From Polaromonas sp. (GTDB lineage Bacteria > Pseudomonadota > Gammaproteobacteria > Burkholderiales > Burkholderiaceae_C): 61,498 nt of DNA. The position numbers were made by a program, and so were the translations under genes. Of the stretch, positions 1-7,475 are shown piece by piece. The DNA lies in NCBI RefSeq assembly GCF_012927485.1, contig NZ_JABBPC010000022.1, positions 1-61,498 on the forward strand, given 5' to 3'. The stretch's first letter is position 1. Every line of letters begins with the position of its first letter. The notes under the pieces are model-generated. The model was not told where the DNA came from. It saw nothing but the letters and a program-made list of their open reading frames with translations, and ran no database searches.

Positions 1-81
1 CCCATCGGTTACATTCCCCCTGCCGAAGCTGAAGAAAATTACTATCGGCAATTAACCAGTCAGGCTGCAGTGTCTGCCTGA
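1..81 (+). CDS. IS3-family transposase OrfB, C-terminal fragment (5'-truncated by window edge)
   Basis: The reading frame is open from base 1 and encodes PIGYIPPAEAEENYYRQL followed by a short Ala/Ser-rich tail and TGA. This matches the last residues of IS3-family DDE transposases, downstream of the catalytic core. The catalytic part is outside the window, so activity cannot be judged. It reads opposite to the neighbouring cassette genes. Confidence 0.8.
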   Translation, partial: PIGYIPPAEAEENYYRQLTSQAAVSA

Positions 82-120
82 CTTAACCCAACGGGCCTCC
101 ACGAAACCCGGGGCGATTCA
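1..120 (+). mobile_element. Right end of an IS3-family insertion sequence (rest outside window)
   Basis: Positions 1-81 read in frame as the C-terminal 26 residues of an IS3-family OrfB transposase (typical GY.PPAEAE..YYRQ tail), ending in TGA. About 40 bases later comes a terminal inverted repeat whose outward reading begins TGAATCGCCCCGGG, a form common in IS3-group elements of Burkholderiales, ending at about 120. The element abuts the remaining part of an attC site at 121, so it has inserted into the outer cassette boundary of the integron array. The other end and any target duplication lie outside the window. Confidence 0.8.
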
Positions 121-174
121 CGTTTGAATTAAGCCGGCCCGCGAAGCGGGTTCGGCTTGAATGAACTGTTAGAC
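115..174 (-). repeat. Integron attC site (outermost seen, outer end lost to IS insertion)
   Basis: The core ends in GTTAGAC at 168-174 and carries paired arms TTGAATTAAGCCG and CGGCTTGAATGAA around a GC-rich centre. It is almost base-for-base the same as the attC at 1495-1554 from position 121 onward. The expected outer core (RYYYAAC) is replaced by the IS terminal repeat ending at about 120. It belongs to the cassette holding the 85-residue membrane protein, whose stop codon lies inside the GTTAGAC core. Confidence 0.8.
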
Positions 175-426
175 CTGTGCCTTCCGCATCTTCCGCTCGC
201 GTTTGAGATAGCGGATACATCCAATTGTGACAATCAGGCCAATGACTACGGTTGCCAATCCTGCCAACAGCCACGTAGTTGACGGACCAGTGAGAGGTTC
301 GCAGTTCGCCACACAAGCGATAGGCTCCAAATGAATTAAGTCAGCACCCTGTAAGGACCAAAGCACGCCAAGGAGGGTGAGCACGATCCCTAATAGTGCG
401 AAAACTCGCGCTAGCCAAATTTTCAT
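169..426 (-). CDS. Cassette-encoded small membrane protein, unknown function
   Basis: The 85-residue product has two predicted membrane helices (about residues 4-24 and 51-72), a short linker with two cysteines (VANCEPL region) and a strongly basic C-terminal tail (KRERKMRK), suggesting both ends face the cytoplasm. A good ribosome site (TAGGAGACGAC) precedes the ATG. The gene fills an integron cassette between attC sites at 115-174 and 510-572, and its stop overlaps the attC core, as is usual for cassettes. I do not recognise a family. Small membrane proteins of unknown role are frequent in chromosomal cassette arrays. Confidence 0.65.
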   Translation of the reverse strand: MKIWLARVFALLGIVLTLLGVLWSLQGADLIHLEPIACVANCEPLTGPSTTWLLAGLATVVIGLIVTIGCIRYLKRERKMRKAQV

Positions 427-509
427 GTCGTCTCCTAAAGCAAGAAAAGATGCTGACCGACAATTGTCAGAACACTAAAATTCGTCGCTGCGATGAGGTT
501 CGTGCGCAG

Positions 510-572
510 GTCTAACGTAAAGTTGAGGGGTGCGCCGCTTTTGACGCGTCCCTCTCGAACGCTCTGTTAGGC
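510..572 (-). repeat. Integron attC site
   Basis: The site is 63 bases long, with consensus cores GTCTAAC (510-516) and GTTAGGC (566-572) at the ends and imperfect complementary arms between them (AGTTGAGGGG.GCG against CGCGTCCCTCTCGAAC). It marks the downstream end of the TipAS cassette and the entry to the membrane-protein cassette. Confidence 0.85.
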
Positions 573-617
573 GAGATGTGATGCGCAGTGGCGAAGCAAA
601 CCCGCTTACAGGTTACG

Positions 618-983
618 TTATGCATAAACATAGATAGCCTCACCCAAGAATCCCACCATATTCCGGTGATACGCGTTGTGGAAGTCCTTCATATCCTTGT
701 TGTCGCTGTAGAAAAGACCCATGCCAATGTAGGCTTCTCTCGAAGGCACATAAAACCGGGAAGCAATAGCGTAACGCTGGGCCATGATCTCCTGGACTGC
801 TGGCGAGGAGGCTTGCGAACCGTCCAGCATGGTAGCCAACCTTTTATAAAGTGCGTCCCAATCAATATGCACCTGCTGTTTATTGACGTGCGACCAATTG
901 TTGGTCTCCGACAGGGATTTTGCTTGCTCGGCATTCAGTGCATTTTTGCATTGTGCGAGATATTCCGGGGTTGAATTTTGCAT
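618..983 (-). CDS. Stand-alone TipAS-domain protein in an integron cassette
   Basis: The 121-residue product is essentially only a TipAS-type helical domain: a helix with W..L..RL..ML.G followed by SSPAVQE...QRY, then FYVPSREAYIGMG.FY and a final helix GFLGEAIYVY. TipAS is the ligand-binding domain of TipA-type MerR regulators (thiopeptide antibiotics), and related stand-alone domains bind albicidin. Here there is no MerR DNA-binding part. The ribosome site AGAAGGATAT lies upstream of the ATG, and the reading frame is intact between attC sites 510-572 and 1043-1129. Role as a drug- or metabolite-sequestering protein is inference. The family call is fairly firm, the ligand unknown. Confidence 0.7.
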   Translation of the reverse strand: MQNSTPEYLAQCKNALNAEQAKSLSETNNWSHVNKQQVHIDWDALYKRLATMLDGSQASSPAVQEIMAQRYAIASRFYVPSREAYIGMGLFYSDNKDMKDFHNAYHRNMVGFLGEAIYVYA

Positions 984-1042
984 GTTCTATATCCTTCTGA
1001 ATAGGGCTACCTTTTATATGCTGCAACTTGTTAAGAGCGGTG

Positions 1043-1129
1043 GCCTAACGTAGAGTTAACCGGCGCGGCGCGGCTTTATCGCGCCGCGTCCAGCGACTGA
1101 AAGGAGCGGGGTTGAGCGCCGGGTTAGAG
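1043..1129 (-). repeat. Integron attC site (87 bases, GC-rich arms)
   Basis: The ends carry cores GCCTAAC (1043-1049) and GTTAGAG (1123-1129). Between them TAGAGTTAACCGGCGC pairs imperfectly with GCGCCGGGTT-like sequence, and an inner stem GGCGCGGC/GCGCCGCG extends the fold. It closes the pseudogene cassette and precedes the TipAS cassette. Confidence 0.8.
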
Positions 1130-1139
1130 GTGAAGCTAC

Positions 1140-1489
1140 TCACAGCGAATAGTCCTCAAATTTGACGAGACGCCAACAAGAGGCTGTTTTTTCAAAGCTA
1201 AACGCAAATGAATAGTCGGTATCCGGTTTGGTGAATTGCACCAAAACTCGCCCTTGCTTAGACCCCACTAATTTTTCAAATGGAATCGTGGCCGTTTTGT
1301 CTTGCTTTGGTAATCAAGACGTGAGTATTTCGGATCAGCCGCGCTGCGGATCTTGTATGTGACCGTTTTTGGTTCAGGCTCAGATGAGCCATTAACGTAT
1401 GTGGCCGAAAGCGGGAAACGGGTGTTCTGTCTTTGAAACTACTGCATACTTTCGAACTTCAATAGGAAGGAGGCAATAAGTTTGTGCAT
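1140..1489 (-). pseudogene. Broken cassette gene (frameshift plus early stop), unknown family
   Basis: Reading leftward from an ATG at 1489, the frame stops after 16 codons (MHKLIASFLLKFESMQ). Coding sense then continues in a second frame (QNTRFPLSATYVNGSSEPEP...YSRLDYQSKT). Near 1300 it shifts to a third frame (TATIPFEKLVGSKQGRVL ... CWRLVKFEDYSL), ending with TGA at 1140-1142. The pieces together look like one small, probably exported protein of about 110 residues whose tail resembles NTF2-like or lipoprotein domains, but I cannot name the family. It occupies the cassette between attC 1043-1129 and attC 1495-1554. Confidence 0.55.
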
Positions 1490-1494
1490 ATAAC

Positions 1495-1554
1495 CTCTAA
1501 CGCCTGAATTAAGCCGAGCCGCGAAGCGGCTTCGGCTTGAATGAATTGTTAGGC
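1495..1554 (-). repeat. Integron attC site (60 bases, classic 59-be form)
   Basis: It starts CTCTAAC and ends GTTAGGC, with arms TGAATTAAGCCG and CGGCTTGAATGAA around a GCCGCGAAGCGGC hairpin. The same arms recur at 121-174 and, with a long loop, at 1976-2092. This repeat family across the array is the mark of a chromosomal integron. It lies directly after the stop of the GFA-family gene. Confidence 0.9.
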
Positions 1555-1564
1555 TGCGTACCGA

Positions 1565-1939
1565 TTACCACAGGTTCTTTCCGTCAATCACGGAAACCGA
1601 CGCGCTTGCTGCATCGAAGTCATCAAAGAGCCGCGCGTTGACGCCAATGCGGCGAGTTTTCTTGTCCCAGCTTCCGTCACGCTCGAATGCGGGACTGTCC
1701 GAGAAGATTGGTATGCCGCAGTTCTTGCAAAAGTGGTGAGCTACGAGCTTCGTTTTCCAGCGATAGATCTCATCGTCTTCAGTCGAAGCATTGACCTGAA
1801 ATTGTTCTGGCTGATAGTAGGCATACAGCGCACCGCGTTTTGAGCAGAACGAACAAGTGCAACGTGTGAGTTGCTCAGGAACATTGCCATCTATCTCGAA
1901 GCTGGTTTTCCCACAGTGACAACTACCTTTGATGGTCAT
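1565..1939 (-). CDS. GFA/CENP-V family zinc protein (cassette-encoded)
   Basis: The 124-residue product has the full GFA fold signature: CHCG near the start (residues 7-10), CTCSFC around residues 28-33, and CKNCG near residue 71, giving the two zinc sites of the family. GFA proteins were named after glutathione-dependent formaldehyde-activating enzyme, but most members have no proven substrate. The gene is a complete cassette between attC 1495-1554 and attC 1976-2092. Its first bases overlap the read-through end of the DUF1697 frame. GFA genes are common cargo of chromosomal integrons. Family certain, reaction unknown. Confidence 0.85.
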   Translation of the reverse strand: MTIKGSCHCGKTSFEIDGNVPEQLTRCTCSFCSKRGALYAYYQPEQFQVNASTEDDEIYRWKTKLVAHHFCKNCGIPIFSDSPAFERDGSWDKKTRRIGVNARLFDDFDAASASVSVIDGKNLW

Positions 1940-2615
1940 GCATTTCTCCTAATCGACGAAAAGAGTTGAAAAGCACCCTAACGCTTGAATTAAGCCGAGA
2001 CGCAACGTGGCAGTAGTGAGCCGACACGACAGCAGCAACGGCAGAAATAGACGAAGCTAAGATGCGGCTTCGGCTTGGATGAATTGTTAGGCTCCAGCCT
2101 CGTGCTGCCGCGCATTTCTTGATAGTGTCCCATGTGCGTGTTGTGACGTTCTTTCCAAGCGTCTTTTCAATGAGTGTCATGAAGATTGGGCCGCACTCAT
2201 GTGGAACATACGCCGTGAACACCTCAGCGCCATCCATGGCTAGGATTTTGGCGCCATCGAGCTCAATAGGCAGCAACAGGTTTTCCTTGTGCGGTTGACT
2301 CAAGAAGGTCACAACTCGCTTTGCCTCTGGCGAGATGTGAAAGTCAGAGTAGGGGTCCGTCTTGAGCAACGCGAGCAGGTGGTTAGTAGTACGCACAATA
2401 ACAGGAAAGCTACGAGGGAGATATTTCTCCATGCCGGATTCAATAACTTTGGCCAGATTCGATTCTTGTTTTTTGGCGCCGGTAAAAACCACGTTGCCAC
2501 TGGACAGAATCGTTCTAACGTCCGTGAAGCCGATCTTCTCGAAGCATTCCTTGAGATCGGCCATCTTGGCGTTCATTGGGCTGACACCACGAAGAAATGC
2601 AACGTAGCGAGGCAT
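1923..2615 (-). CDS. DUF1697 protein, first cassette, reading through its own attC
   Basis: The start is the ATG at 2615 with ribosome site AGGAG six bases upstream. It begins MPRYVAFLRGVSPMNAKMAD, the usual DUF1697 opening, followed by LSSGNVVF and the conserved C-terminal WDTIKKCAAARG. Family members normally end about there (some 180 residues). Here there is no stop, so the frame runs on through the attC at 1976-2092 and ends at 1923, adding about 60 non-family residues and overlapping the next gene's start. It is the cassette next to the presumed attI, so would be the best expressed. DUF1697 function is unknown. Confidence 0.8.
   Translation of the reverse strand: MPRYVAFLRGVSPMNAKMADLKECFEKIGFTDVRTILSSGNVVFTGAKKQESNLAKVIESGMEKYLPRSFPVIVRTTNHLLALLKTDPYSDFHISPEAKRVVTFLSQPHKENLLLPIELDGAKILAMDGAEVFTAYVPHECGPIFMTLIEKTLGKNVTTRTWDTIKKCAAARGWSLTIHPSRSRILASSISAVAAVVSAHYCHVASRLNSSVRVLFNSFRRLGEMHDHQR
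1976..2092 (-). repeat. Integron attC site with long central loop (117 bases)
   Basis: Cores CCCTAAC (1976-1982) and GTTAGGC (2086-2092) with the same arms as other sites in the array (TTGAATTAAGCCGAG and GCTTCGGCTTGGATGAA), but with about 60 extra bases in the terminal loop. The coding frame of the DUF1697 gene passes through it. Confidence 0.85.
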
Positions 2616-2629
2616 TTGTCGCTCCTGGG

Positions 2630-2636
2630 GCCTAAC
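2630..2636 (-). other. Probable attI/first-cassette recombination junction
   Basis: The heptamer GTTAGGC (read on the minus strand) directly precedes the first cassette's ribosome site. No matching outer core and arms follow to the right, so this is the expected crossover point between attI and the first cassette rather than an attC. The sequence to its right is AT-rich and holds a large palindrome instead of a recognisable attI. Confidence 0.55.
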
Positions 2637-2640
2637 TAAT

Positions 2641-2690
2641 ATTAGACATCCGAATAGACGCAAAACATTGCGTCTATTCGGATGTCTAAT
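2641..2690. repeat. Perfect palindrome, 23-bp arms with AACA loop, in the attI region
   Basis: The left arm 2641-2663 (ATTAGACATCCGAATAGACG..) is exactly complementary to the right arm 2668-2690, leaving a four-base loop at 2664-2667. Pairing stops at once outside the arms. Neither side carries a convincing T-run, so a plain Rho-independent terminator is not obvious. It lies between the first cassette junction (2630-2636) and the integrase relic, where attI and the divergent promoters of an integron normally lie. Confidence 0.95.
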
Positions 2691-3314
2691 TATTTATAAA
2701 AATGTAAGATGATTTTAAATTTATCCATGTAGCGAAATTTAGCACCTTCTAAAATAAATGCAATGCCCATCAGAAAATTTACCTAGGCAAGAACCTACGT
2801 TGCTCGATTAAGTCAGGGGGAAAATCCGCTTGAAGCATGACAGTACCCGTACTGAGCAGGCTTATACGGACTGGGTTAAACGCGCATTAGGGTTGGCAGT
2901 GCACTCTCCCGCGCTGGTCGCGAGATGCGCGAGCACGGCACTTTCGAGTTCGCAAATGAAGCGGTCAGCTATCAGGAACTCAGCACCATGTTCGAGACAT
3001 GACGAGCGTGATATTTATTCTCCAATTGCCGATTCCTTCCAACAGCATGGCCCCAGTGGGCCCACAAGAGCTGTTCTTTTGCAGCCTGATAAACTCCGCT
3101 TGACTCTTTTCTTTGGAGAGAATCGCGCGGCCGGATTGGGTGGGCAGCTGTCGGTCGCTCGCAAAACTGCATGGTCGTTTTCAGTCGGAAGCAGAAGTTC
3201 GGCCTCCAACGCTTGACCCTCTGTTTTTGGCCGAACACTGCTGCCGGCCACGCCTCCGAATTCATGAAAATTATGGCTCTGCATCAAGCGCGGGCTATTC
3301 ACGCATACCGCCTA
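2691..3314. other. Intergenic decay zone between integron and M20 gene
   Basis: Bases 2691-2780 are markedly AT-rich compared with the rest of the window and could have held the cassette promoter. Bases 2788-2888 hold the integrase relic. A following frame (about 2900-3002, ending REMREHGTFEFANEAVSYQE.. then TGA) looks protein-like but I do not recognise it. Bases 3003-3314 show no supportable gene. Confidence 0.5.
2788..2888 (+). pseudogene. Integron integrase (intI) N-terminal relic with in-frame stop
   Basis: In one frame the sequence reads LLD-stop-VRGKIRLKHDSTRTEQAY then TDWVKR. This matches the start of integron tyrosine recombinases (LLDQVRE.IRLKHYS.RTEQAY..WI.R). The stop is TAA at 2809-2811, where a CAA glutamine codon is expected. 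Homology ends abruptly after the KR, so the core-binding remainder, the catalytic domain and the tyrosine are all absent. It reads rightward, opposite to the cassettes, which is the normal integron geometry. Without a functional integrase here, the array can only be moved by one supplied elsewhere. Confidence 0.7.
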
Positions 3315-4538
3315 ATGACTGATTACGACCGACTCGACACCTGGGTGGACACCTATTTCAACGAAGAAGTCCGCTTTTTGCAGGACCTCATTCGCGTGCC
3401 GACCGATACGCCGCCGGGTAACAACGCACCCCATGCCGAGCGCACCGCCGAGTTACTCAACGCCTTCGGTTTTGAGGCCGAGAAGTACCCGGTGCCACAG
3501 GCCGATGTGAAGGCCTATGGCATGGAGTCGATTACCAATCTAATCGTACGCCGTCACTATGGGGTTGGCCGCACGATTGCCCTGAATGCCCACGGCGATG
3601 TGGTGCCTCCTGGCGAGGGCTGGACTCACGACCCCTATGGCGGCGAGATCGAGGATGGCAAGATTTATGGCCGCGCTGCCGCTGTCAGCAAAAGCGATTT
3701 CGCCAGCTTCACCTTTGCCGTGCGCGCGCTGGAGTCATTGAGCGCACCGCTGCACGGCAACGTCGAACTGCATTTCACCTACGACGAGGAATTTGGGGGT
3801 GAATTGGGGCCTGGGTGGCTGCTCAAGAAGGGCCTGACTCACCCCGATCTGATGATTGCAGCGGGGTTCTCCTACGAAGTCGTGACCGCCCACAACGGCT
3901 GCCTGCAAATGGAAGTGACGGTACACGGCAAGATGGCTCACGCTGCCATTCCGCACACCGGGGTGGATGCGCTGCAATGCGCCGTTGGCATTCTCAATGC
4001 GCTGTATGCGCAGAACGCGCTGTACCAGCGAGTCACCTCCAACGTCGAGGGCATACAGCATCCCTATCTCAACGTGGGGCGTATTGAAGGTGGCACCAAC
4101 ACAAATGTGGTTCCGGGAAAAGTCACGTTCAAGCTAGACCGCCGCATCATCCCGGAAGAAAATCCTGCAGAGGTGGAGGCTGTTATCCGCCAGGTAATCA
4201 CCGATGCGGCGGGCCGCTTTCCGGGAATCAGCGTTGAAATCAGGCGGCTGCTGCTGGCCCACGCGATGCAAGCACTTCCTGGCAACAAGCCTCTGGTGGA
4301 GGCCCTCCAAAAACACGCTGCAACGTTGTTCGGCCAGCAGATCCCCACCATGGGTACACCGCTGTATACCGATGTCCGCCTGTATGCGGAAGCTGGCATT
4401 CCCGGTGTCGTCTACGGCGCGGGGCCGCGCAGCGTGCTGGAGTCCCACGCCAAACGTTCTGACGAGCGACTTGATCTCGAGGACTTGCGTCGTGCCACCA
4501 AGGTCATTGCGAGGACGCTGAAGGACCTGCTGAGTTAA
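3315..4538 (+). CDS. M20-family metallohydrolase (ArgE/DapE/acetylornithine deacetylase-like)
   Basis: The 407-residue product matches M20 amidohydrolases/peptidases in length and layout: metal-binding HGDV (His93, Asp95), bridging Asp128 in SKSD, catalytic YDEEFGG (Glu158/159), lid domain about residues 185-300, and a late metal ligand His378 in ESHAKRSDER. These enzymes remove acyl or amino-acid groups from amides in the cytoplasm. The start at 3315 was chosen because family homology begins there. An upstream ATG at 3264 is in frame but adds non-family residues. It converges with the DUF1854 gene of the cyanophycin locus, so a role on arginine- or aspartate-containing peptides is possible but inferred. 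Confidence 0.85.
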   Translation: MTDYDRLDTWVDTYFNEEVRFLQDLIRVPTDTPPGNNAPHAERTAELLNAFGFEAEKYPVPQADVKAYGMESITNLIVRRHYGVGRTIALNAHGDVVPPGEGWTHDPYGGEIEDGKIYGRAAAVSKSDFASFTFAVRALESLSAPLHGNVELHFTYDEEFGGELGPGWLLKKGLTHPDLMIAAGFSYEVVTAHNGCLQMEVTVHGKMAHAAIPHTGVDALQCAVGILNALYAQNALYQRVTSNVEGIQHPYLNVGRIEGGTNTNVVPGKVTFKLDRRIIPEENPAEVEAVIRQVITDAAGRFPGISVEIRRLLLAHAMQALPGNKPLVEALQKHAATLFGQQIPTMGTPLYTDVRLYAEAGIPGVVYGAGPRSVLESHAKRSDERLDLEDLRRATKVIARTLKDLLS

Positions 4539-4551
4539 GCCGCCACGCGCG

Positions 4552-5070
4552 TTAAAGAAAGCGCTCCAACAATCGGCGTGAGGCACGATCCAGGGCCGTC
4601 ATATTGGGCACGCTGTATTGCACTCCTTCGCTACCCGCAATCAGCAGGGCCTGACGTCCCAAACGGCGAATATCCTCTTCGCCCTTGAGTACAAACGAGG
4701 TGTCGCCCCGATCGGTTTCGACCGTCCAGATGCTCGGCGTCGCAAAAGTCGAGACACTTACAAGCCGCTTGATCTCGGGTACGAAATCGCGCAGGGCCAA
4801 CTCTTCTTGAAGCAGCGCGCGCAGTGCCGTCGGCAAGGCCTGCAGCCGCTCTATCCACGCCACCTCGTGACCCTCGGTATTGACCAGCGAAATACCTTCA
4901 TCGGGCGCCGCGAGGGGAAACGCCCGCACCGGCACCACGCCAGCATGCTGCTCACCATTAGCGTCAATGAACAACAACCGCCCCGACGCTTGGCGCTCGA
5001 GCCGAAAGCCCGGAGAGACAAGGGAATCGAAATCAAAATGGGGGGCTGTCATGCTTAGACCTTCGCTCAT
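4552..5070 (-). CDS. DUF1854 protein, cyanophycin-associated
   Basis: The 172-residue protein contains the DUF1854 signature (residues about 60-170: EVAWIERLQALP, EELALRDFVPEI, STFATPSIWTVETDRG, RLLERFL end). Its start ATG overlaps the stop of the upstream ABC transporter gene by ATGA, indicating translational coupling. In Burkholderiales this pair sits beside cyanophycin synthetase genes and is annotated as cyanophycin-metabolism associated. The biochemical role is unknown. An internal ATG at 5052 (MTAPHFDF) is an alternative start. No signal peptide or membrane segment is visible, so a cytoplasmic partner of the transporter is likely. Confidence 0.8.
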   Translation of the reverse strand: MSEGLSMTAPHFDFDSLVSPGFRLERQASGRLLFIDANGEQHAGVVPVRAFPLAAPDEGISLVNTEGHEVAWIERLQALPTALRALLQEELALRDFVPEIKRLVSVSTFATPSIWTVETDRGDTSFVLKGEEDIRRLGRQALLIAGSEGVQYSVPNMTALDRASRRLLERFL

Positions 5071-7475
5071 GGGTTACCTGCCTGCTGGGGGGCATGATGG
5101 GCCGTGTGCGCCAGCTGCGCCGTGGCCAGGGCTATCCGGGCTCCCTGGCTCTCCTCGACCTCGCCGCCCTGCCCTTCGCTGTCGACCTGCCGGGCTTGGG
5201 CCTCGTACAGCCGCCAATAGGCGCCCTGCTGCGCCATCAGTTCATCATGCGGTCCGACTTCCACCACTTGCCCACGGTCCATCACCACGAGCCGATCGGC
5301 TTTGCGCAATGTTGACAGCCGGTGCGCGATGGCAATCGTGGTGCGGCCCTGCACCAGATTGTCGAGCGCGCGCTGGATTTCCTTTTCAGTTTCCGTGTCC
5401 ACCGATGAGGTCGCCTCGTCCAGGATCAAAATGCGCGGGTCGATCAGCAAGGCGCGCGCAATCGAAATGCGTTGGCGCTCCCCGCCCGACAGCCCCTGGC
5501 CGCGCTCGCCCACCAGCGAGTCGTAGCCCTGAGTCAGGCGCAGGATGAATTCGTGTGCATGGGCGGCACGAGCGGCGGCCACAATCTCGGCACGCGTCGC
5601 GCCCGGTTTGCCATAAGCAATGTTTTCCGCGATGGTGCCAAAAAATAGAAACGGCTCCTGCAGCACCAAGCCGATATTGCGCCGATAGTCGGCCACGCTG
5701 AAGCGCCGAATGTCGGTGCCGTCTACGCTGATGGCGCCGTCGCTCACATCGTAAAAGCGGCACAACAGATTGACCAGCGTGCTTTTACCCGAGCCGCTGT
5801 GGCCCACCAGACCGATCATCTCGCCAGGCTGGATTTGCAGGTCCAGTCCGCGAATCACGGTACGGTTGCCATAGCGAAATCCGATGCCCTTCATCTCGAT
5901 GCGGCCCTGGAGCGCTTCGATTTTTATCGGCTGGGCCGGCTCGGGCACGTCGGACACGTGGTCAAGAATGTCAAAAATCCGCTTGGCGCCCGCTGCCGCC
6001 TTTTGCGTCACGGAGACAATGCGGCTCATGGAATCAAGTCGCCCATAAAAGCGACCGATATACGCAATAAATGCGGTCAGCACGCCCACCGTGATCTGCT
6101 GCCTGGCTACAAGCCAGATGCCGAACGCCCAGACTACCAGCAGCCCCACTTCCGTCAGCAACGAAACGGTAGGCGTAAACAGCGACCAGGTTTTATTCAG
6201 TTTGTCATTGGCCGCCAGGTTGTATTGATTGACATCGCGAAAACGTTGGGCTTCACGCCTTTCCTGGGCAAACGCTTTGACGACCCGGATGCCGGGGATC
6301 GTGTCCGCCAGGACATTGGTCACATCGGACCATACCCGGTCAATTTTTTCAAAACCGGTGCGAAGCTTGTCGCGCACCACATGAATCATCCAGGCGATAA
6401 AAGGCAAGGGCATAAACGTCACGAGCGCCAGCCATGGGTTGACGAAAAATAAAATGACCGCCGTCATCACGATCATCAGCACGTCGGTGGCGAAGTCCAG
6501 CGCGTGCAATGATAAAAACACGCAAATTCGATCCGTTTCGGAGCCAATCCGTGACATCAGGTCGCCGGTCCGCTTACCCCCAAAGTAATCCAGCGACAGC
6601 TCCAATAAATGGTCAAAAGTAGCGGTCCGCAAATCGGCTCCGATGCGCTCGGACACCAGTGCCAGCAAGTAGGTCCGAGCCCAGTTCAGCGCCCAACCCA
6701 GCACCGCTGCACCGAGCAGCCCACCCAAAATGAGCAGCACTTTTGAGGACTCAATTTTCTGGCCGTTCTGGAACGGGATCAGAATATTGTCCATCAGTGG
6801 AATGGTGAGGTAAGGCGGCACCAGCGTCGCCGCCGTGGAGGCGAGCGTCAGCAAGAAGCCGGTCAGCAGTTGGTAGCGGTACGGGTGGGCAAAACGCCAC
6901 AGTCGCAGCAGCACCCAGGTCGAGGGTGGCGTATGCAACTCCCGGGCGCAAGCCGGGCACTCGTCGCTATCCGGAGGCAGTGGCAAGTCACATTCCGGGC
7001 ACAGTGAGACCTCGTCGGCGGGTCCAAACGCAGGGTCTGCTTTGGCTGCCGCGCCGGAGGCTTCGGCTGGTGTCCGGGCCTGCTGCTGCGCAAACATCCG
7101 CACCAAACGCACCGCCTGGACATTGGCTCCCAGGGTAAAACGCCAGCTGCCGAGCCGGCTGGAATCATCGCTATCGCTGTCATAAAGCTCCAGCGTTCCC
7201 ACCCCGGCATGGTCGAAATGGCGAAGTTCCAGCCCGCGCCGCTTCGGCTGGGTTCCGCCGGTGTCCAGGGTGGACCAGCTGATCCAGGTGCCCTCGGGGC
7301 TACAAGCCAGCAGGCGCCGGTCCGTCAGGGCCAGCAGACCCTGGGCAAAGCGAAGTTGCTGGTCCAAGTCAACCACCAAGGTGCACAAAACGTTCTCTTG
7401 GTTTGCGAGCTGCGAACGGAGTCCTGCCGCAGGGCCGGTTTGGCTTGAATCGTCCACCGGGTAGTTATGTTGCAT
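5067..7475 (-). CDS. ABC transporter (fused membrane and ATPase domains) with PH-like and zinc-ribbon N-terminus, cyanophycin-associated
   Basis: From the ATG at 7475 the product is 802 residues. Residues about 25-130 form a PH-like/GRAM-like beta domain. A zinc ribbon follows (Cys159, Cys162, Cys173, Cys176). A six-helix type-1 exporter domain spans about 200-490. The ATPase domain shows Walker [10 protein letters not shown] (558-566), signature LSGGERQR (662-669), Walker B ILILDEAT (682-689) and a switch His in IAHRLST. All ATPase motifs are intact. The N-terminal extension is unlike ordinary lipid/drug half-exporters. It is coupled to DUF1854 and divergent from the cph genes. Substrate unknown. 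An in-frame earlier start at 7595 exists but lacks family homology. Confidence 0.85.

Follow-up and report, generated by a model that had tools for sequence, protein, structure and literature searches.

We analysed a 61,498-nt stretch of DNA (hereafter the window) from a Polaromonas sp. genome, which is contig C15 (NZ_JABBPC010000022.1, bases 1–61498) of a 3.5-Mb assembly (GCF_012927485.1) with 37 contigs and a completeness of 99.99. At its left end lies one end of what appears to be a degenerate chromosomal integron, the left edge of which coincides with the contig end. From right to left, the locus consists of an M20 (ArgE/DapE-type) hydrolase gene on the plus strand (3315–4538; TIGR01910, E 1.4e-70, and synteny), a relic of the integrase gene intI, an attI site and five gene cassettes on the minus strand, each with its attC recombination site. 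The last attC is cut by an insertion sequence (IS) of the IS3 type at the contig edge.

The cassettes differ in content and in their state of preservation. Cassette 1, next to attI, contains an open reading frame (ORF) of the DUF1697 family (1923–2615; PF08002, E 1.1e-26 on the ORF 1923–2663), which has no stop of its own and runs on through the long, complete attC of this cassette (1976–2092; 35.0 bits in the covariance model R3 described below). Cassette 2 encodes a 124-aa protein of the GFA family (1565–1939; PF04828, E 2.8e-13) and has a complete attC at 1495–1554 (45.9 bits). Cassette 3 has decayed: its body (1130–1494) has a longest ORF of 42 aa, and none longer was found across 456 bp, next to a complete attC (1043–1129; 43.5 bits). 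Cassette 4 encodes a 121-aa stand-alone TipAS antibiotic-recognition domain (618–983; PF07739, E 1.2e-14) and has a complete attC (510–572; 46.0 bits, with a fold). Cassette 5 contains an ORF of 85 aa (169–426) with no Pfam family over the cut-off, and its attC (∼121–174; 34.4 bits over 115–174) is interrupted one base into the R′ box by the IS, which ends at 120. The first-pass annotation of this DNA had counted at least four open cassette genes, and four of the five are indeed open, with the qualification that the DUF1697 ORF is open for want of its own stop. Among ten cassette proteins none matched a defence family at E ≤ 0.001, and the only Rfam match in the window (gathering thresholds) was a tRNA. 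The TipAS protein has 90 homologues, the best of them 98% identical; as proteins up to 98% identical lie on short ENA contigs, this cassette may be in circulation.

The attC sites were located by a script that accepts a site if it has an R″ box (YYYAAC), an R′ box (GTTRRR) and a fold. It returned the four complete sites in positions 1–6000 of the window, and none of the six candidate pairs in 3001–61498 passed it. For alignment, 30 attC of at most 90 nt were picked by hand from script matches in the window, on contig C11 of the same genome and in seven loci of other genomes; longer attC, sites not in arrays and a small number of other short sites were excluded. In this alignment, the two attC arms pair in 84.9% of cells compared with 20–43% for slid partners, changes on both sides occur in 9 of 15 arm pairs, and three of five pairing measures were never reached in 500 shuffles. 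Because one covariance model (R1) includes three attC sites of the window, we scored all sites with R3, a held-out model of our own (not that of IntegronFinder) built from 22 sites of other genomes only. All five window sites score 34–46 bits in R3 and the next-best match in the window scores 14.4 bits, which bears out the five attC-like sites proposed in the first-pass annotation.

The attI site (2630–2649; GCCTAACTAATATTAGACAT) was recognized with a motif derived from the regions upstream of intI. We collected 76 such regions including that of the window, 71 of them at least 250 nt long; three further loci lacked the anchor motif. The attI motif (consensus GCCTAACGTAAAGTAGACAC) scores above 9 in 58 of the 71 regions (57 besides the window), mostly ∼200 nt ahead of a conserved IntI motif. 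In the window, the site scores 20.9, compared with a mean of −1.1, a 95th percentile of 5.0 and a maximum of 13.3 in a shuffled 500-nt background. Among the 13 regions under this threshold of 9 are two loci of the class 1 type (L188 and L189) and two from the same genus (L017 and L018). A perfect inverted repeat with 23-nt arms (2641–2663 and 2668–2690) and a 4-nt loop overlaps the inner attI box. By eye, GGTGTATA-like motifs are repeated after attI, in inverted and direct copies, in L193, L194, L211, L212, L213 and L240; they could possibly be extra IntI binding sites or promoter elements.

The intI relic lies to the right of attI on the plus strand (2758–2883) and was identified by tblastn and by ranking IntI N-termini. 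It comprises the first 42 codons from an ATG at 2758, with a TAA at codon 18 (2809–2811), and similarity to IntI stops after 2883. BLAST aligns it with the IntI of L011 at 80% identity over 30 residues (E 8e-10), and a second search at 75% over 32 (E 2e-10). The 24 residues past the TAA are 79–83% identical to 12 collected IntI N-termini, ten of which belong to loci that had been grouped beforehand by the type of stem after attI. A rightward integrase relic at this end of the array had been predicted, which holds for these 42 codons but not for the right half of the predicted relic (2901–3002). That stretch, in a different frame from the relic, encodes 33 residues and a stop and matches the end of an annotated Paraburkholderia isocitrate lyase/phosphoenolpyruvate (PEP) mutase gene (tblastn, 61% over 31 residues, E 3e-4). 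We reject it as a part of IntI and regard it as the probable 3′ fragment of a plus-strand gene of the isocitrate lyase/PEP mutase family, for which 2907–3000 gave no Pfam match. The ORF piece 2830–3000 matched nothing in NCBIfam and Pfam because it is mostly not IntI.

Since IntI similarity ends and a piece resembling the tail of another gene follows, intI was likely truncated by a rearrangement and not by point change alone. When 2884–3314 was searched against the genome, the only match besides itself was one of 29 bases (E 0.2), and a DNA search of plasmids with 2600–3314 gave two matches of ∼40 nt (E 0.06). No intact IntI was found in the genome: TIGR02249 gave six matches, none over the cut-off, and the window relic is not among its genome-wide matches at E ≤ 1e-3. 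In the order Burkholderiales, 148 of 399 genomes have an IntI match at E ≤ 1e-60, and three same-genus genomes (G012, G014 and G034) have an IntI over the cut-off.

The array does not appear to end at the contig edge. Elements of the IS3 family are characterized by transposase similarity, TGA...TCA ends and a 3-bp target duplication, and the element at 1–120 (plus strand) shows these features. It consists of the C-terminus of orfB (1–81) and a terminal repeat ending in GATTCA at 120, and a plasmid match (H1) that starts at base 1 overlaps an annotated IS3 family transposase. The other IS end forms bases 1–105 of contig C2, in the orientation that completes the element and with matching terminal repeats; the flanks share a 3-bp duplication CGT (ACGT if the element is one base shorter), and the middle of the element is absent from both contigs. 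The first-pass annotation had proposed to carry the attC search to the left of the window, and on C2, past the IS end, R3 finds 11 further attC with the same reading direction. The C2 cassettes include genes for a cupin, a DUF2971 protein (split by a stop), an EthD protein, a GNAT acetyltransferase, a glyoxalase and proteins without a Pfam match, and the last one is broken and methyltransferase-like as read from sequence alone. The IS ends, their orientation, the shared duplication and the 11 attC indicate that the array very likely runs on across the IS3-type element into C2. The five cassettes of the first-pass annotation are thus all present in the window, but the array as a whole has ∼16 attC (5 + 11) and 16 cassettes, and the leftmost attC of the window is split by the IS. 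Two C2 cassettes (L179:106–577 and L179:1175–1424) are alike in translation just past the attC boundary.

The genes at the two ends of the array indicate where the integron sits. On C2, the final attC directly adjoins the 3′ end of a fusion gene for UHCU decarboxylase and allantoate amidohydrolase (allC), itself next to the genes for allantoinase PuuE and hydroxyisourate hydrolase, while the M20 gene lies at the opposite end, on C15. In relatives, these two genes are neighbours: allC directly precedes M20 in 79 of 80 named loci, with a gap of at most ∼150 nt by BLAST ends, and the sole exception (L106) starts 120 nt before M20. The same holds for 29 of the 29 same-genus loci examined; in all, 69 other genomes of this genus have a match to M20. 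Eight junctions were inspected, and all have ATGA at the M20 start, which may represent overlapping stop and start codons. Among named relatives, the M20 gene is closest to those of Polaromonas (83–84%) and of Ramlibacter and Xylophilus (83%). Here, the amidohydrolase stops at a TAA inside the R′ box of the attC. As the pair is adjacent in relatives and its members flank the array here, the integron very likely sits exactly at the allC–M20 junction and splits this gene pair of a purine operon. Among the three same-genus relatives with an IntI over the cut-off (the kind of comparison suggested in the first-pass annotation), G014, which has its IntI elsewhere, keeps an uninterrupted allC–M20 pair (L125).

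Taken together, these results suggest, with a probability that we put at about 0.9, that window positions 1–2883 are one end of a degenerate chromosomal integron whose array very likely continues onto C2 and which splits the allC/M20 pair. A live IntI would have inserted cassettes one by one at attI (2630–2649), the newest nearest attI, and such stepwise insertion would orient every cassette to be read away from intI. The integrase would then have died through the TAA at codon 18 and the loss of similarity after codon 42, with the catalytic domain gone, and the array would have been frozen, given that no other IntI over the family cut-off is found in the genome. A predicted weak cassette promoter (Pc) to the right of the palindrome may still drive the genes close to attI, and its transcript would bear the 23-bp stem-loop near its start. 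Further decay is seen in the IS in one attC, the dead third cassette and the DUF2971 cassette split by a stop on C2. The intact geometry and destroyed integrase of a fossil integron, as first described for this locus, are therefore supported by the attC array, the attI site and the broken intI.

Several observations weigh against parts of this reading. The 27-aa piece of the relic matches integrase profiles below their cut-offs only (NF011946 integron integrase, E 0.0023; TIGR02249, E 0.0043; PF13495, E 0.0029). The first-pass annotation had made its reading depend on a profile match to IntI; the relic has a clear BLAST match and these weak profile matches, and the latter may be expectable for a piece of only 42 codons. 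In the 30-site attC alignment, the observed number of double-change pairs was reached in 23 of 500 shuffles and that of further pair types in 385 of 500. One C2 attC (4008–4094) is weak in R3 (16.3 bits, E 0.2), and no single contig joins C15 and C2, which are linked by the IS ends, the duplication and synteny. The frozen state would follow from the absence of IntI in an assembly of 37 contigs, and Pc is predicted from a consensus match only.

Alternative explanations differ in how much of this evidence they can accommodate. The attC cluster could be a cluster of attC sites lacking an integron integrase (CALIN) that arose by off-target insertion and never had an integrase, the relic being a chance resemblance. 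The shortness of the match to IntI and the subthreshold profile scores would agree with this, and Xanthomonas commonly has CALINs remote from intI (PMC12444791). However, a scored attI and an IntI N-terminus occur together at the expected place, spacing and strand, and both indicate the same integron group, so that we consider this origin very improbable. It is equally hard to sustain that C15 and C2 carry two unrelated arrays, each abutting a copy of the same multi-copy IS. IS ends at contig edges are what any multi-copy IS would produce, but the orientation, the duplication and the flanking allC and M20 genes, which are adjacent in relatives, all agree with one array. A somewhat better, though still unlikely, alternative is that the array remains mobile, its cassettes being shuffled by an integrase supplied in trans by a plasmid or mobile integron. 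Four of the five window attC are complete and one (1495–1554) equals a site carried by mobile integrons; against this stand the lack of any genomic IntI above the cut-off, the IS within one attC and the fact that some cassette genes are broken. With an integron that lost its integrase as the preferred reading, the locus can also be placed in the existing classification. Of the features of a functional chromosomal integron, attI beside intI and an attC array reading away from intI are present, a Pc is predicted from consensus matches only and a complete intI is missing; an interrupted and truncated intI with attI and array kept is that of a pseudo-integron. Operationally the locus is also a CALIN, defined as two or more attC in a cluster with no intI gene close by (PMC12444791), and the intI relic and attI show that this CALIN-like array began as a full integron.

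A further question is what the palindrome beside attI (2641–2690) does. On the minus strand, the palindrome with its flanks folds with a z-score of −7.1, and the stretch of the window is the most extreme (z −12.8) of 58 stretches following attI. In 13 related loci, including the window and picked for having stems, the stem pairs in 79.4% of cells, shows double changes in 7 of 11 pairs and has a covariation score of 0.251 compared with at most 0.105 for slid partners, while two of five measures do not exceed the shuffles (34 of 500 and 217 of 500). Folds after attI have z < −1.64 in 30 of 57 loci compared with 6 of 57 in each of two controls; after clustering at 65% identity, this becomes 6 of 20 representatives compared with 4, 5 and 3 of 20 and 0 of 19 in the controls. 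A stem-loop general to attI is weakened by this small excess, and we claim one for the related subgroup only. Promoter-like matches on the cassette strand of related loci peak 100–109 nt from attI (17 compared with 3.2 expected per bin), so that cassette transcripts would carry the stem in their leader; in the window, a stricter scan left one such site on this strand, at chance level. We infer that the stem-loop may serve this subgroup of integrons as a conserved leader or regulatory element. It could instead act as DNA, as an operator of intI, a bidirectional terminator or an inverted duplication of an attI arm, a possibility that we rate only slightly below even odds. A simple scan calls the palindrome terminator-like on both strands, and plus-strand promoter-like matches are also enriched in related loci, 50–109 nt from attI overall and in the 100–109 nt bin (16). 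The double changes fit selection on pairing, although they cannot tell pairing in RNA from pairing in DNA and should be read with the two measures that stay within the shuffles. The available portions of three papers on attI and cassette expression (PMC8876359, PMC8946536 and PMC3108266) contain no mention of such a stem, and a literature search gave no title or abstract start naming one, although this does not prove that none has been described. As a feature that a subgroup has in common in position and pairing, this stem-loop is a testable candidate regulatory element.

The attC of cassette 2 (1495–1554) links this chromosome to mobile resistance cassettes. Over 57 of its 60 nt, it matches with 100% identity the attC of fosE cassettes, which confer fosfomycin resistance and occur on clinical plasmids (H41 and H42), and 10 of 3659 matching records are at least 99% identical to it. 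As the cassette body (1556–1975) has no plasmid match, it is the recombination site that is shared, and the cassette is not a recent clinical one. The fifth attC (120–174) likewise resembles that of aadA16 cassettes, with 89.1% identity across all of its 55 nt, and pieces matching it reach 95–99% identity in 32 records. A core pattern of the fosE-type attC (at most three mismatches; 0 matches in backward controls; own genome counted) occurs in 7 of 87 genomes of the genus and in 31 of 399 Burkholderiales genomes, in 25 of 159 genera. R3 confirms the pattern site in 14 of 20 loci tested (failing in L255, L257, L259, L260, L262 and L272), including two of six other same-genus genomes (L256 and L261) and six of seven other-genus loci; the loose core pattern alone does not prove an attC. 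The 52-mer of this attC is exact in a second species of the genus (G093; L261:1487–1545), with two more attC-like sites nearby. Within the class and order searches it is exact only in the own genome, and within three mismatches it occurs in 8 of 369 class and 9 of 399 order genomes (own included), so that we reject an exclusive association with one taxon. Some pattern matches in Burkholderiales may represent recently acquired mobile cassettes, such as the G179 site, which is 97% identical over 66 nt to that of an aadA cassette.

The genome contains a second dead integron with a different IntI type. R3 finds ten attC in C11:55249–63034, one of them weak (15.7 bits), beside an intI relic (L139:7400–8000, i.e. 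C11:63400–64000) with the first ∼125–150 residues, two stops and a frameshift. This relic adjoins an isocitrate lyase gene and is preceded by an attI-like site and an imperfect hairpin, both seen by eye; the script found no perfect palindrome there. Its second piece is nearest the IntI of the same-genus locus L018 (51% over 103 residues), unlike the window relic, which is nearest L011 and its like. After each of the two relics comes a whole or partial gene of the isocitrate lyase/PEP mutase superfamily (2901–3002; L181:4268–5587), on opposite strands, possibly by chance. Solitary attC-like sites also lie on C34 and C21, far from both arrays (L182:5326–5385, L183:4617–4676, L184:4515–4579 and L185:4218–4276).

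A literature search combining Polaromonas, integron integrase and attC returned nothing. Dead integrons as such are a known kind. Nearly one third of the intI genes in one survey are pseudogenes (Nemergut 2008, PMC2426708). Our locus resembles these pseudo-integrons in an integrase killed by a stop and a deletion and in the presence of more than one intI per genome, several being common there; it differs in that only 42 codons are left and in that the two remnants of the genome are nearest different IntI types. Most Xanthomonas isolates of one study carry inactive integron modules (PMC12444791). The likeness to the ilvD integrons of that genus with truncated or deleted intI is that the array is kept and the integrase inactivated, whereas the site (allC–M20) and the host genus are different here. 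For the Xanthomonadales-like attC clade, to which fosE and many aadA cassettes are assigned as their source, 935 of 941 sites were reported from Xanthomonadales (Ghaly and colleagues, PMC8352920), and a review repeats the figure of >99% (PMC8618304). The attC at 1495–1554 is like this clade in its identity to the fosE site over 57 of 60 nt, but its host belongs to the Burkholderiales, and its relation to the clade was measured by identity to fosE and aadA attC. The fosE-identical attC and the cores in 31 of 399 Burkholderiales genomes question the claimed >99% confinement, a comparison that is indirect in that our core pattern is not the published attC model, and they bear on the origin of clinical resistance cassettes. 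Because the fosE site is exact over a 52-base core beside an unrelated cassette gene here and in a second species, chromosomal integrons of Burkholderiales might be a source pool of the fosE/aadA-type cassettes now on class 1 integrons, which we regard as a doubtful though not far-fetched suggestion. New relative to these systems are the site of insertion, the length of the array, the occurrence of a fosE-identical attC in this genus and the stem-loop that a subgroup of integrons has beside attI. The locus captures the death of an integron cleanly and both of its flanks are known, so that the insertion can be placed against relatives with an uninterrupted gene pair.

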